Shown here one piece after another: positions 56,075-62,327 of a stretch of 64,000 nt of DNA. Below the pieces are notes generated by a model. The model was given only the letters and a program-made list of their open reading frames with translations. It had not been told where the DNA came from and made no database searches. The position numbers and the translations under genes were made by a program. The stretch covers positions 620,001 to 684,000 of the forward strand of contig NZ_VTZS01000002.1 of the NCBI RefSeq assembly GCF_008367235.1. Direction: 5' to 3'. The stretch is from Pareuzebyella sediminis. Its GTDB lineage: Bacteria > Bacteroidota > Bacteroidia > Flavobacteriales > Flavobacteriaceae. Position 1 is the stretch's first letter, and each line of letters starts with the position of its first letter.

Positions 56075-57004
56075 ATGCAAAGTACCAATAGCATTTTGAT
56101 GATTCGACCGGTCAGCTTTCGCATGAACGAACAGACCGCCGTCAATAATTATTTCCAAGAAGATATCGATCTAAAAAACGCTACGATCAATCTAAGGGCA
56201 CAGGAAGAATTCGATGCGATGGTAAGCCTTTTACGAGAGAACGGGGTAACAGTCATCGTGGTCGACGATACCTTGCAACCTGATACCCCTGATGCTATTT
56301 TCCCCAATAATTGGATATCTTTCCATGAAGACGGTACGGTAGGCCTATATCCAATGTTCGCCGAGAATCGCAGAAAGGAAAGACGGGATGATATTTTCGA
56401 TATTCTCGAACAAAAAGGATTTCGAATTGATACTGTAGTAGATTATACTTCAGCAGAGGTAGAAGGCATTTTTTTGGAGGCCACGGGAAGTATAGTATTT
56501 GACCGTATCGACAGAAAGGCATATTGCGCCCTTTCCGATAGGGCCCATGAAGACCTATTTATTGAATTTTGTGAGGATTTCGAATACTTTCCTGTGATTT
56601 TCACGGCTAACCAGTCAGTAGGCGGTAAGCGAATGCCCATTTATCATACTAACGTGATGATGTGTGTGGCCGATGATTTTTCGATAATTTGTCTTGATGC
56701 TATCGATGATAAAAAAGAGCGTAGGAATGTCATCGATCACTTGAAAAAAAGCGGAAAGGAAATACTGTCGATTTCTGAAGCTCAAATGCACCATTTTGCG
56801 GGTAATATGCTTCAGGTATTGGGCTTCGGCGACAAAAAATACATGGTTATGAGCTCGGCGGCATATCAAAGCCTAACCAAACAACAAGTCGAGCACATAC
56901 AGTCCTATTGCGGGATTATACATAGCTCGCTAAAAACCATCGAAACATGCGGAGGGGGCAGTGCCAGATGTATGATGGCGGAAATATTTCTACCAAAGGC
57001 CTAG
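56075..57004 (+). CDS. ctlX: Citrulline utilization hydrolase CtlX
   Basis: A 309-residue member of the same guanidino/ureido hydrolase fold. Family features are MIRPVSFRMNEQT, DAIFPNNWISFHEDGT, LEATGSIVFDR, HTNVMMCVADD and the C-terminal ETCGGGSARCMMAEI with the nucleophile Cys299. CtlX was shown in Francisella to hydrolyse citrulline to ornithine, ammonia and CO2. The second gene of an operon with a deiminase-like enzyme, it completes a plausible arginine-to-ornithine route near carA. Confidence 0.87.
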   Translation: MQSTNSILMIRPVSFRMNEQTAVNNYFQEDIDLKNATINLRAQEEFDAMVSLLRENGVTVIVVDDTLQPDTPDAIFPNNWISFHEDGTVGLYPMFAENRRKERRDDIFDILEQKGFRIDTVVDYTSAEVEGIFLEATGSIVFDRIDRKAYCALSDRAHEDLFIEFCEDFEYFPVIFTANQSVGGKRMPIYHTNVMMCVADDFSIICLDAIDDKKERRNVIDHLKKSGKEILSISEAQMHHFAGNMLQVLGFGDKKYMVMSSAAYQSLTKQQVEHIQSYCGIIHSSLKTIETCGGGSARCMMAEIFLPKA

Positions 57005-57057
57005 TTTCTCAATATATTCAGATGTACAATTGCGTGGTTTGATCTGTCAAAGCTTAT

Positions 57058-57210
57058 TTAGTGGATAGCTTCTATGGATATTTCTTTTCCCAATGTAGAA
57101 TCGGCCCATTCGTTCTGATCGGCAGAATGAGTATGTGTTACTTGATATTGGATCAAAGCGGCGATTACGAATCCTGTAAAATACAAAAGGCTCTTAACTT
57201 TTTTATTCAT
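57058..57210 (-). CDS. Putative 50-residue small membrane protein
   Basis: ATG at 57210 to TAA at 57058 encodes 50 residues: basic MNKKVK, one transmembrane or signal-like helix (SLLYFTGFVIAALIQYQV), then a polar His/Asp/Glu-rich tail (THTHSADQNEWADS, ending EISIEAIH). The N-in basic start plus helix is protein-like. The overlapping plus-strand ORF looks like a shadow. It lies downstream of GH31 and of a short remnant, tail-to-tail with ctlX. No function can be given. Confidence 0.5.
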   Translation of the reverse strand: MNKKVKSLLYFTGFVIAALIQYQVTHTHSADQNEWADSTLGKEISIEAIH

Positions 57211-57247
57211 GGTATATCTGATTTGATGCTGAAGCTAAAGTAGGGCA

Positions 57248-57405
57248 TTAGTCTTTCAAAAATCCCATGATGTTGTCAATAATGCCCTTTTGGTGGTCAA
57301 AGGCTTTCAAACTGTTGAATAACGTTTTCTTTAATCGTATTACTATGCCTTTGGTCGAATCAGACAATAAATGCTGTCCCGATTTCCATAAGAAGCTATC
57401 TAGAT
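57248..57405 (-). pseudogene. Unidentified coding remnant downstream of GH31 gene
   Basis: Reading minus from the GH31 stop, one frame is open for about 52 codons to TAA at 57248 and looks like protein (LDSFLWKSGQHLLSDSTKG, then LKAFDHQKGIIDNIMGFLKD). There is no ATG or GTG start; the frame runs back into the GH31 end in another phase. I read it as the 3' end of a lost gene. The parent family is not recognised. A functional small ORF starting at TTG cannot be excluded. Confidence 0.35.
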
Positions 57406-59547
57406 TTATTGGGCAGTCATAAACTCCCAGGTTATTTTTCCATAGTCGAACTGACCTTTCTTGATTATTTTAGACGTACCCTTAAGTTTTCCGTTGTTTT
57501 TATTCGCAACGCTCAACTCCCTTAAGGTAAAGGCACCATTTTCATAATCATAGCTGATGCCGTCATCATTGTATAGGGTAAAGGTATTTTCTTTTGTACC
57601 GTAATGTCTCACAAGTATGGGTGGCTTCTCTTCTTTATTGATTTCAATAGTTGCTAACATAGGTATAATAGCCCCATCTTTCACTAAGAGTGGAATTTTT
57701 TCCAAGGTTGTTTTGATCGTAATGGTTTCCCCATTACCCCTAAATTCTCCAGAGTAGAAATCGTACCAATTACCTTCTGGTAGTATAATTTGGCGCTCTT
57801 TTTGACCTGTAAAAACTGGTGCCACGAGAATAGAGGGGCCCATCATGTATTGATCGGTTGCCTCAATGCGTTTTTTTTCAGCATAGGGGTTTTTGGTGTC
57901 GTCCAAGACTCCTTTGGTGTAGCGTTCATTCGATGTATAGCCACTTTCCAAAATCATGGCCCGAAAAGGGGGAATTCCTGTTTGATGGTAGGTATGAAAT
58001 GCCGTATAGAGATAAGGCAGTAGTCTCATTCTTAACTCGATGGTATTGCGCACGATATCGGTAACTTCGGGAAAGCTCCAGGGTTTGGCTCCCGAAGACC
58101 AGGCATTGAGCATCATCAATGGAGAGAAGCATACCGACTGAAAACGTCGTACCCATTCTTCGCTAGAATCGGCACTGCGTATTTCGGGGGTCCATAGAAT
58201 ACCGGCCAGGGAAGAATTTACCAAAGCGGTTATATAGCCTTTATGGTCATAATAATCACTATAGAGCACAAAATTCCTGTTACTTGCCCCGACATAAGAA
58301 GATCTTATGAGTCCGTAGGTACGTTGGTTCTTTTCCTTGAAATAACCGTCGAACATGGCTTGCATCATCATACCATATACTTGGCGCATCGCTATCGCAT
58401 CATGTCCGGAGGGAAAGGTTGCATGATCTGGCCATAACCAAAAATCGTATCCGTCGACTTCATCGAATTTATAGCCGCTGACCCCGATATCAAGATGATT
58501 CTTCTTATGGTGTGCAAGCAGTATTTCTTTTGCTTCGGGAATCGTGTAATCGGGTACCTCGCCCAACCACACCGTATGGCTTGCCGTATATGGATGGATG
58601 GCTTCGTACATGGTAGAGGTGGGTGCCACATAGGGATTTTCCCAAAGGTTTACCCTAATACCTTTGTCGTTCATTTTTTCTAAGAAACTGGCGGGGTCTG
58701 GAAAACGAATAGGGTCCCAATCGAAAGAACACGGATAGGCAAAACTCTGCCATCCCGGTTCGAGACCGATTACGTCCAAAGGAAAGTTATGATGCTCAAA
58801 GTCCTTGACTTCCTTTAGTACATCAGCATCGGAACTTTTGGTATCCATACGATGCCAAAAACCAAGCCCCCACTTTGGAGGTAAAACACCGCCGCCTCCG
58901 AAGAGATTGTAGCGTTGTACCACTTCAAGCAAGGTCTTTCCTGAAAATACATAAATCTCCATTCCGCCGTGTTCAACACTGGCCTCTATAGCATCCGATA
59001 GGGGTCTGGCGGGCCAATTCTTTCCCGTAGTGCGGTCGATGGGCTCTGGCTTTTTACTGTCTTTACGATTTCCGATGCCTACGTGAATTTTTATGCGCTG
59101 AGGAGAGTTGATCAATACGCCATACCCTTGACTCGATATGTAAAAAGGAACAGGTGCATGTGTATACCCTTTAATTCCTCCGTAATGGTCCACCTTGAGG
59201 GTATACACATTACCTCTTCTATTGATGCCTTCAAATTCAAGGCCAAGACCATATATTTTTTCAGTTTCCCCGAGAGGCAAACGAATACTGGTTCTTGTCG
59301 GTGTGAGCAGCCCATAAGTATCTGCCTTTTGAAAGGGAAAAGGCGCTTCACCTAGCGCTTTGATAGCCTGTTCTTTTGGGGCGTTGGCAAATTCTAAAGG
59401 GTTTAATTTCAGGGTTCCAACGGACGCCTTCCAAATACCTGGATGTAACTGCTCCCATTGCAAAGTAGTCATGTCTGAAATTAAGGTGTTCTGGCCTTGT
59501 GCGTTTATCACCGAGAGTAAGAACAGACCGATAAAAATTTTTTTCAT
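57406..59547 (-). CDS. Glycoside hydrolase family 31 protein, secreted
   Basis: A 713-residue alpha-glucosidase/alpha-xylosidase-type enzyme. The start at 59547 gives a signal peptide MKKIFIGLFLLSVINAQGQ; the longer ORF adds 22 residues that belong to the rpiA remnant region. An N-terminal beta sandwich (residues about 30-215) is followed by the TIM barrel with WGLGFWHRMD, and the nucleophile Asp362 in GYKFDEVDG. Asp431 in LYSDYYDH is the likely acid/base. C-terminal beta domains contain GNWYDFYSGE and YNDDGISYDYENGAF. Exported, probably periplasmic; acts on alpha-linked sugars, linkage not deducible. Flanked by two gene remnants. Confidence 0.9.
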   Translation of the reverse strand: MKKIFIGLFLLSVINAQGQNTLISDMTTLQWEQLHPGIWKASVGTLKLNPLEFANAPKEQAIKALGEAPFPFQKADTYGLLTPTRTSIRLPLGETEKIYGLGLEFEGINRRGNVYTLKVDHYGGIKGYTHAPVPFYISSQGYGVLINSPQRIKIHVGIGNRKDSKKPEPIDRTTGKNWPARPLSDAIEASVEHGGMEIYVFSGKTLLEVVQRYNLFGGGGVLPPKWGLGFWHRMDTKSSDADVLKEVKDFEHHNFPLDVIGLEPGWQSFAYPCSFDWDPIRFPDPASFLEKMNDKGIRVNLWENPYVAPTSTMYEAIHPYTASHTVWLGEVPDYTIPEAKEILLAHHKKNHLDIGVSGYKFDEVDGYDFWLWPDHATFPSGHDAIAMRQVYGMMMQAMFDGYFKEKNQRTYGLIRSSYVGASNRNFVLYSDYYDHKGYITALVNSSLAGILWTPEIRSADSSEEWVRRFQSVCFSPLMMLNAWSSGAKPWSFPEVTDIVRNTIELRMRLLPYLYTAFHTYHQTGIPPFRAMILESGYTSNERYTKGVLDDTKNPYAEKKRIEATDQYMMGPSILVAPVFTGQKERQIILPEGNWYDFYSGEFRGNGETITIKTTLEKIPLLVKDGAIIPMLATIEINKEEKPPILVRHYGTKENTFTLYNDDGISYDYENGAFTLRELSVANKNNGKLKGTSKIIKKGQFDYGKITWEFMTAQ

Positions 59548-59572
59548 AGTTTTTATTTTAATAGAAGATCGC

Positions 59573-59850
59573 TTAATTGTCCGGTTTTGGGAACGTTTCA
59601 ATCTCTTCCTCATTGCCCGTGAGTATCAGATCGGCATAGTCAAGGGATAGTCCAGGATCTATGATATCGGGTATATTATTTAGTTGTTCCTTCAACTGAA
59701 ATGGATTTATAATCTTTTTAAATCAAGATCAATGATATAATTACCGTTATCGGATATAAAGATATGACCGGTTACGGTCTTTCACAATAATGGCTTTAGT
59801 CCTAAAAGTAAGGAGGGAATAACAAAATCACTGTTTTTGGGTCTATACAT
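59573..59850 (-). pseudogene. Decayed ribose-5-phosphate isomerase A (C-terminal part)
   Basis: Minus-strand translation in two frames recalls the C-terminus of RpiA. The first frame starts at ATG 59850 and reads KPLL-stop-KTVTGHIFISDNGNYIIDLDLKR (in pieces: HIFISDNGNY, IIDLDLKR). A one-base frameshift follows, then INPFQLKEQLNNIPDIIDPG and LSLDYADLILTGNEEEI, ending TAA at 59573. RpiA proteins have DNGN-hhhD, then L-x-x-x-L-x-x-IPGVVExGLF and a final ADhhhhG, which this follows. The N-terminal half is missing; it directly abuts the BCCT gene stop. One stop and one shift make it nonfunctional. Confidence 0.6.
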
Positions 59851-59851
59851 T

Positions 59852-61330
59852 TTATTTTTTCAATACATCTTTTAGAAATAGCGTACTCATGACGATCATG
59901 TAGAAGGCAAAAGGCAATGAGGTTATGACCAGTAAGAGTTGCACGGCATCCAATACATTAATGTTTTGCTTGGCATTACCTAAGAGTAACAGTGCCATGG
60001 TAGCCATTAAGACAAAAATTGACCATAGAAGGCGATGTTTCTTTAGCGGATTTCTTTTGCCTTTATCAGTAAACATACTCAACACAAATACGGCCGAGTC
60101 TACCGAGGTAACCAAGAATCCGATTAGCAGAAACAGCGTGGTGAAATTGAGTAGGTTTGCACCAGGTAGGTGTTCAAAGAAAACAAATATGGAAGAGAAT
60201 ACGTTACCAAATTCCTGATTGTAGGCACCCCACGTTTCGATTAATTGAAATGCCGAAGTGCCGAAAACTGAAAACCAAAAAAAAGTACCTAAAGACGGAA
60301 TAATCAATACCCCGCCAATCAATTGCCTCAAGGTCCTTCCTTTAGAAATCCGTGCGATAAAAATTCCGGTGAAAGGAGCCCAGGCCAACCAAAAAGCCCA
60401 GTAATAGAAAGTCCAGTCCGTGAGAAAAGAAATTCCCGGGTTGTAGGATCCCCATGCGAGGCTCATAGGTATAAAATCCATGATATAATATCCTGTCGTT
60501 TTGACGAATGCTTGCAAGATAGTCGGCACATCCCCATACAGAAATACAAAGAGCAATATAGCTAGCGTAACCACAATATTTATTTTAGAAATAATTTTAA
60601 TGCCTTTGTTTAAACCTTGCCAAGCAGAATAGAAAGAAAGGCCTGAAACAAGAGTCGCCAGTAAAAGCATGGTTCCCAAACCAAAATTAGGTCCGAATAG
60701 ATGGTTTAGCCCTCCGTTGATTTGTGCGGTACCAAGGCCGATTGCAGCGATTAGTCCAAATACTGTAGTGATAATGGTCATGATGTCGATGCTATGTAAG
60801 GCTATTTTGTTTTCGACGGCATTCTGCACCGCGGCACTCGCCAGCACCTTTCGTTTTTTAACGAATAGCCCGTAACCGATAACAAGAGCAAAAAGCCCAT
60901 AAAACGCCCAAGCCGTGAAGCCCCATTGATAAAAAGTAAATTCAAGGGCCAAGGATTCCCTAGAAAGCCCGGAAAGGTACGGTGGGTGTTGTTGCATGAA
61001 AACAGGTTCTTGAACGGCGCGTAGTAAAATACCAGCCCCCATTCCGGCACTATATAGCATAGCGGTCCAGGCCCATAATGAGTGTTCCGGCTTTGAATCT
61101 TTCTTTCCGAGACGTATTTTTCCTAAAGGGGATAACCCGATACCTATCAAGAAAAGCACACAACCCAGACCCAAATAAAGATAGAAATAGCCAAAATGGT
61201 TGCGTACCCAAAACGATGCCGTTTCTATCATGGCGTAGCTTGTTTCCGTGGCGGAAAATACGACTAGGGTAAACGTAAAAACGATACCTATGGAAACGAA
61301 TAATAAAGGATTTTTGAATAGTTTCCCCAT
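59852..61330 (-). CDS. BCCT family transporter (betaine/choline/carnitine type)
   Basis: A 492-residue inner-membrane transporter with 12 hydrophobic segments. Family motifs are the Gly-rich GMGAGILLRAVQEPVF, the broad WAFWLAWAPFTGIFIARISKGRT and SVDSAVFVLSMFT near the end. In characterised members aromatic boxes in TM4 and TM8 bind quaternary ammonium groups; TM8 here has TFYYWAFWLAW. The Arg-Ala-Val where many have Tyr-Gly-Val is unusual. Met at 61330 or at 61339 could be the start. It lies 34 bases after the preceding gene in a minus-strand operon. Probable role: osmoprotectant uptake driven by Na+ or H+. Confidence 0.88.
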   Translation of the reverse strand: MGKLFKNPLLFVSIGIVFTFTLVVFSATETSYAMIETASFWVRNHFGYFYLYLGLGCVLFLIGIGLSPLGKIRLGKKDSKPEHSLWAWTAMLYSAGMGAGILLRAVQEPVFMQQHPPYLSGLSRESLALEFTFYQWGFTAWAFYGLFALVIGYGLFVKKRKVLASAAVQNAVENKIALHSIDIMTIITTVFGLIAAIGLGTAQINGGLNHLFGPNFGLGTMLLLATLVSGLSFYSAWQGLNKGIKIISKINIVVTLAILLFVFLYGDVPTILQAFVKTTGYYIMDFIPMSLAWGSYNPGISFLTDWTFYYWAFWLAWAPFTGIFIARISKGRTLRQLIGGVLIIPSLGTFFWFSVFGTSAFQLIETWGAYNQEFGNVFSSIFVFFEHLPGANLLNFTTLFLLIGFLVTSVDSAVFVLSMFTDKGKRNPLKKHRLLWSIFVLMATMALLLLGNAKQNINVLDAVQLLLVITSLPFAFYMIVMSTLFLKDVLKK

Positions 61331-61373
61331 ACACTTCAAATTATCGCCTAATTACTTTAGGCGCGTTACCTTT

Positions 61374-62327
61374 TTACCTTTCGGTATTTATAAGTGTGAA
61401 AAATTGACTTTGACCTAAATCGGATTCCAATACAGCCATAAATTCTATCGAGGTTCCCTTGATAATTATAGCAGCCGTATTCGGGCCAACTTCGCCCAGA
61501 TTTTCGGCATACAAGGTTATGGTGTTCGGACCAGGTTGTAATTCAATATCATAGTATTTCTTTTCCCGTGCTAAGGGCAGTCTCTCTACGATTATCTTAT
61601 CATTGAGGTAAATCGTCACGCGGTCATGGTCGATATTTCGGTGGTCATATAGGCCTATTTGAACATTTCTTTGTGGGATGGAATAAGTTTGGCCACTATC
61701 CATAAGTTTTCTTTCTGCAAGGGGGGTATCAGAACTAAGGGTTGTTTTTTCGGGTGGTGTCTTGATATTCTCCATTTTACCCTTTAGGCTTGAAGGTTGT
61801 AAATGGAACCCAATGATTTTTATACTCTTTATGAAATCGGTGGGTATGTTTTGATTATTGACCTTTTGAAGGGCAATGGTCAGGTTCTGATAAGCGTACC
61901 TTGGCTTGATTAAAAAAGTGAAATGACCTCTTGCAGTAAAGGAAGGGGGTGGTCTAACCTCAAGTTGCGGGCTTGGGTGGACTGGTTCGATTTCTTCAGA
62001 ATTGGAAATCAAAGTGTGGTCTGCAGGCTTCGCAAGAAAAAGAGTTATTGGAAAAGAATAGAATCGTGTTGGTACTTGCTTGCCGATGATCCAAAAACTG
62101 GCCTCATAGGTAGTACCCGGTTCTAGTTTTCTATTCCATTCATAAGTCTTGACGGACACATACCCGGTAGGAGCCTTTTTGGGAACCGCTAACTCTAGGT
62201 ACTCAAATTCACTGGTTTTTACCTTTCGACTTTTTTGTTGGCCATTAATCCGTAAACCGTTGAAAAATAACATGTAAGCCACAAGTAGGACATACTTTAA
62301 TGGTATTTTTTGTAGATAAAAAATCAT
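61374..62327 (-). CDS. Hypothetical secreted protein with C-terminal beta domain
   Basis: A 317-residue protein with an N-terminal hydrophobic segment (PLKYVLLVAYMLFFNGLRI), probably a signal peptide. A middle region of about 130 residues is mostly beta-strand. The C-terminal domain (about 210-317) has the pattern QIGLYDHRNIDHDRVTIYLN, then TITLYAENLGEVGPNTAAI, which I have seen repeatedly in flavobacterial secreted and OmpA-linked proteins, with no assigned function. Its start overlaps the stop of the SDR/DUF2867 gene (ATGA), so it is translationally coupled to it, and the BCCT gene follows. Confidence 0.72.
   Translation of the reverse strand: MIFYLQKIPLKYVLLVAYMLFFNGLRINGQQKSRKVKTSEFEYLELAVPKKAPTGYVSVKTYEWNRKLEPGTTYEASFWIIGKQVPTRFYSFPITLFLAKPADHTLISNSEEIEPVHPSPQLEVRPPPSFTARGHFTFLIKPRYAYQNLTIALQKVNNQNIPTDFIKSIKIIGFHLQPSSLKGKMENIKTPPEKTTLSSDTPLAERKLMDSGQTYSIPQRNVQIGLYDHRNIDHDRVTIYLNDKIIVERLPLAREKKYYDIELQPGPNTITLYAENLGEVGPNTAAIIIKGTSIEFMAVLESDLGQSQFFTLINTER

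Follow-up and report, generated by a model that had tools for sequence, protein, structure and literature searches.

What is the sequence that separates a BCCT transporter gene from a GH31 glycosidase gene in Pareuzebyella sediminis, and how did it come to lie there? Both genes are on the minus strand of the window (the whole 64-kb stretch of DNA that was analysed). The BCCT gene (59852..61339; PF02028, E 1.6e-129) is the upstream flank of the sequence in the direction of the genes, and an intact gene for a GH31 family glycosidase (57406..59547; PF01055, E 3.5e-46) lies downstream. A preliminary description of this DNA had noted a gap of 304 bases between the two genes, and the coordinates bear this out: the spacer from the BCCT stop codon (59852-59854) to the likely GH31 ATG (59545-59547) is 304 bases. 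It had also read the minus strand of the gap as the last third of ribose-5-phosphate isomerase A (RpiA), interrupted by one stop codon and one frameshift.

We found that, judged on its sequence, the similarity to RpiA is real. The read-through sequence, translated with X at both breaks, matched PF06026 (Rib_5-P_isom_A) with an E value of 2.7e-9 and 37.3 bits, above the curated cut-off of 26 bits, and covered profile positions 105-172 of 173. Choosing where two frames join could bias such a match, so we also searched unjoined segments. A profile of 23 intact RpiAs from the family was compared with the 2430 six-frame segments of 15 residues or more that lie between stops in the 64-kb window. The two unjoined pieces of the remnant, 59576-59722 (E 4.9e-7) and 59710-59781 (E 0.008), were the top two of all 2430 segments. 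The third-ranked segment of the window had an E value of 2.9, and for the 10 shuffled sets the best E values lay between 0.41 and 15. Chance similarity is ruled out by the shuffled sets. The early reading of the minus strand thus holds, and the RpiA match that it proposed to look for at the protein level in 59560-59860 is there. When we scanned the P. sediminis genome frame by frame with PF06026 (E 0.001), the remnant was not reported, presumably since none of its unbroken pieces is long enough, and no rpiA was found; protein queries do detect the remnant in this genome.

The remnant consists of approximately 230 bases (59576..59805, minus strand) and encodes, in two frames, approximately 75 residues from the C-terminal third of RpiA, as placed by the profile and protein-query matches. 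It ends at a stop codon at 59573-59575. An in-frame TGA lies within it at 59782..59784, and the frame changes in the stretch 59707..59725, where the matches in the two frames overlap. The 46 bases that adjoin the BCCT gene (59806-59851, minus strand), from the remnant to the BCCT stop codon, gave no convincing match to RpiA, and we take them as the zone of the 5' breakpoint. In the assembly the coding sequence can still be recognised but carries the disabling lesions that define a pseudogene: a 5' truncation, the TGA and the change of frame.

The truncation is extensive. Compared with the nearest intact RpiA that we found (226 residues), the remnant lacks some 150 N-terminal residues, or about two thirds of the protein. 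The preliminary description was right that the 5' part is missing, but it had put the loss at the N-terminal half. In the alignment, the motifs DGADEFD and KGGGG fall in the missing part, and a complete RpiA domain is absent. We take DGADE and KGGGG to be active-site motifs of RpiA. An intact RpiA used as a query against the whole genome (4.9 Mb in 20 contigs, 99.96% complete) at E values up to 10 matched the remnant only, and the lost 5' part was not found. A functional short RpiA was considered and rejected; the region with the conserved motifs is missing. Isomerase activity of the remnant is not expected from the sequence, because no open frame covers the fold. The remnant probably has no product and no function.

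We found an intact gene for the other ribose-5-phosphate isomerase, rpiB, on another contig (G000:C14:521416-521829; E 6.8e-53; PF02502, E 1.6e-53). The preliminary description had expected a working rpiA or rpiB elsewhere in the genome. The second of these is present. No other rpiA was found, either with the profile (E 0.001) or with the intact RpiA query (E up to 10), so the expectation is borne out for rpiB only.

PF06026 was found in only 23 of 397 family genomes and in 1 of 60 relatives; PF02502 (rpiB) was found in 57 of 60. (The P. sediminis genome is counted in each of the sets of 60, 395, 397 and 99 genomes.) The gene for rpiB was also present in 17 of the 23 family genomes that carry rpiA. 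We conclude that rpiB is the usual isomerase of Flavobacteriaceae and that rpiA is an uncommon accessory. The sequence beside the BCCT gene is an ordinary find, a pseudogene fragment of an accessory rpiA that was redundant. Pseudogenes of redundant accessory genes are ordinary remnants of gene decay in bacteria. The present one resembles them in its truncation, stop and frameshift and in that the genome keeps an intact, non-homologous substitute, and it differs from them in nothing notable.

We did not detect rpiB in six of the 23 carriers of rpiA (G103, G167, G173, G311, G351 and G363; the genome G173 is only 86% complete). Hence rpiA is no mere spare in every lineage, and this suggests that rpiA and rpiB replace each other in some lineages. 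In a study of Gloeobacteraceae, rpiA and rpiB are described as gained and replaced by lateral transfer (PMC13237429). The likeness is that rpiA and rpiB are gained and replaced independently between lineages; the difference is that the acquired copies are reported there as present genes, whereas here the copy is dead and rpiB was kept. An algal RpiA structure is the subject of another paper (PMC7589169). Among the matches listed in literature searches for rpiA pseudogenes and for flavobacterial rpiA and rpiB, nothing dealt with this case, and the word Flavobacteriaceae did not occur among the matches listed for the latter.

The nearest intact RpiA that we found, from a genome of the family (G225), is only 49% identical to the remnant over 75 residues. 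When the remnant was used as a query against 395 genomes of the phylum, no match from any genome but its own exceeded 41% identity. Compared with the RpiA family (PF06026), the remnant matches the last third of the domain, at this 49% identity to the nearest intact protein, and it differs in lacking the N-terminal two thirds with their motifs and in having a stop and a frameshift inside. In a maximum-likelihood tree of 40 rows, the remnant paired with the RpiA of G225 (support 99/92) and fell outside a group of 21 family sequences, three of which come from the genus of G001. With its 70-odd residues the remnant covers no more than 32% of the columns, which makes the tree weak and the placement indicative. 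For the phylum part of the tree, 19 RpiA loci were tried and three without a full open reading frame were dropped. In all of these comparisons the genus is represented by the P. sediminis genome alone.

To see how the site is arranged in relatives, we scanned named genomes with the BCCT protein and compared the best 80 of 113 relatives, with flanks of up to 6 kb, some of them shorter. None of these 80 loci had a relative of rpiA or of the GH31 gene in the fetched flank. The preliminary description had suggested looking for this locus in close relatives, and the arrangement did not recur in these 80. In 48 of the 80, a dimethylargininase-like gene, called ctlX here, lay downstream of the BCCT gene, tail to tail with it. 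The window has this partner as well (56075..57004, plus strand; PF19420, E 1.1e-109). The gap between BCCT and ctlX was 9-233 bases in 28 of the 80 loci and 450-5731 bases in another 20; ctlX was not found in the flank of the remaining 32. The corresponding gap of the window measures about 2.85 kb. The contents of the spacer between BCCT and ctlX differ among Flavobacteriaceae (L072-L076, L078, L100-L179).

A small open reading frame delimits the extra DNA on its far side. It has 50 residues (57058..57210, minus strand), and it begins MNKKVKSLLYF. In all five Zobellia loci, an open reading frame of approximately 50 residues lies behind BCCT, with its start 267-356 bases from the BCCT match; its relative in the window lies behind the GH31 gene. 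Four of the five matches came from tblastn (L101, L102, L103 and L105, with 40-65% identity over 20-50 residues) and one was made by eye from the list of open reading frames (L135). There was no Pfam match for the small frame (49 of its 50 residues were scanned, the start residue being absent), and it may encode an unannotated small protein. The simplest reading of the sequences is that the rpiA remnant and the GH31 gene are extra DNA between BCCT and the small frame. On the other side of the BCCT gene, between it and a gene for an NAD-binding/DUF2867 protein, the window encodes a 317-residue protein (61374-62327, minus strand) with no Pfam match at E 0.01; its relatives precede BCCT in six of the 80 loci (L100-L105, from Zobellia, Pelagihabitans and an uncultured member of Flavobacteriaceae; best 80 of 113).

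The segment looks inserted because none of the 80 BCCT loci had rpiA or GH31 in the flank and because 28 of the 80 had BCCT and ctlX tail to tail within 300 bases. The preliminary description had proposed that a deletion or an insertion joined rpiA to the BCCT gene. The same two counts favor an inserted segment; BCCT and rpiA do not look as if a mere local deletion had brought them together from an ancestral order of genes. The ends of the segment had no convincing repeats, only short imperfect matches, and no Rfam family matched in 56900-60000. Evidence on mobile genes comes from the list of open reading frames and from Pfam searches with eight proteins, seven of them from the window.

We think it likely that the sequence is what remains of a redundant accessory rpiA gained by lateral transfer: a dead, non-coding fragment, cut at its 5' end and decaying beside an intact GH31 gene. 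A segment with rpiA would have entered the convergent spacer behind BCCT, and GH31 would have come at the same or at another time. The first two thirds of rpiA would have been lost at the junction on the BCCT side, either on arrival or by a later deletion. What remained of rpiA would then have been free from selection, as rpiB supplies the isomerase. The starting points of this history are observations: the stop and frameshift in the remnant, the intact rpiB, the lack of another rpiA in our searches, and a segment common to none of the 80 compared loci.

Relatives of the GH31 protein at E 1e-90 or better were found in 13 of 397 family genomes, its own included (at most two candidates were scored per genome). 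The three nearest are 67-73% identical and sit among other genes without rpiA, and none of the 12 other GH31 loci had rpiA nearby (flanks of approximately 8-10 kb for three and 1.5 kb for nine). From the other direction, we fetched wide flanks for 20 of the 23 family rpiA loci (leaving out those of G173, G258 and G351) and found no relatives of the BCCT or GH31 genes of the window near rpiA. The sole window-side gene that matched these 20 neighborhoods was an unrelated gene beyond the end of the window. No donor with rpiA beside this GH31 was found in these 20 rpiA loci or the 12 other GH31 loci, which counts against the history given above. So do the gaps of 450-5731 bases and the loci in which ctlX was not found, which indicate that the site is simply variable. 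A stronger version of the history seems doubtful to us. In it, foreign genes would land by preference in the convergent spacer behind BCCT across Flavobacteriaceae, and rpiA, at the end of the segment that brought GH31, would have been cut as it arrived.

Instead, the ancestor of the genus might already have had rpiA at this place as a native gene, which was then lost through a simple local deletion and through decay once rpiB made it redundant. It is plausible that rpiA became redundant and was lost in a family in which 23 of 397 genomes have rpiA and 17 of those 23 also have rpiB. Some members of the family keep rpiA in a stable place: a gene for a HAD-like hydrolase is beside or near rpiA in seven of the 20 loci (L057, L058, L059, L063, L064, L065 and L071), with proteins 56-84% identical to that of L063. 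Same-genus pairs among the rpiA neighborhoods share more genes. However, this recurring neighbor has no match anywhere in the window, none of the 80 BCCT loci (best 80 of 113) has rpiA in its flank, and none of the 20 fetched rpiA loci has BCCT or GH31. The tree also set the remnant apart from the 21 other family sequences. We consider a native origin improbable.

Two other readings concern the remnant itself, and both seem very unlikely. The stop and the frameshift could be sequencing errors in a short intact C-terminal RpiA-like open reading frame; there are only two such lesions, both known from the assembly, and the frame changes in an A-rich stretch. The N-terminal two thirds with the motifs are nevertheless absent here and were not found anywhere in the genome, so that no isomerase would be encoded even if the frame were unbroken. 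It is similarly hard to believe that the remnant has been kept as an untranslated or regulatory element, as a leader of GH31 or a terminator of BCCT, although it fills most of the gap between these genes and has, on the minus strand, weak promoter-like sites at 59760 and 59583 and a weak terminator-like site at 59779. The 11 promoter-like and five terminator-like sites were within two standard deviations of the shuffled means (7.1, sd 2.2, and 2.7, sd 1.7, respectively), the Rfam search was negative, and the remains of rpiA coding sequence explain the sequence.

For annotation, the locus should be marked as an rpiA pseudogene, and rpiB should be taken as the isomerase of the pentose phosphate pathway. 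The importance of the locus beyond annotation is little. On a small scale it also illustrates how a redundant isomerase is gained and lost where, as in this family, rpiB normally does the work.
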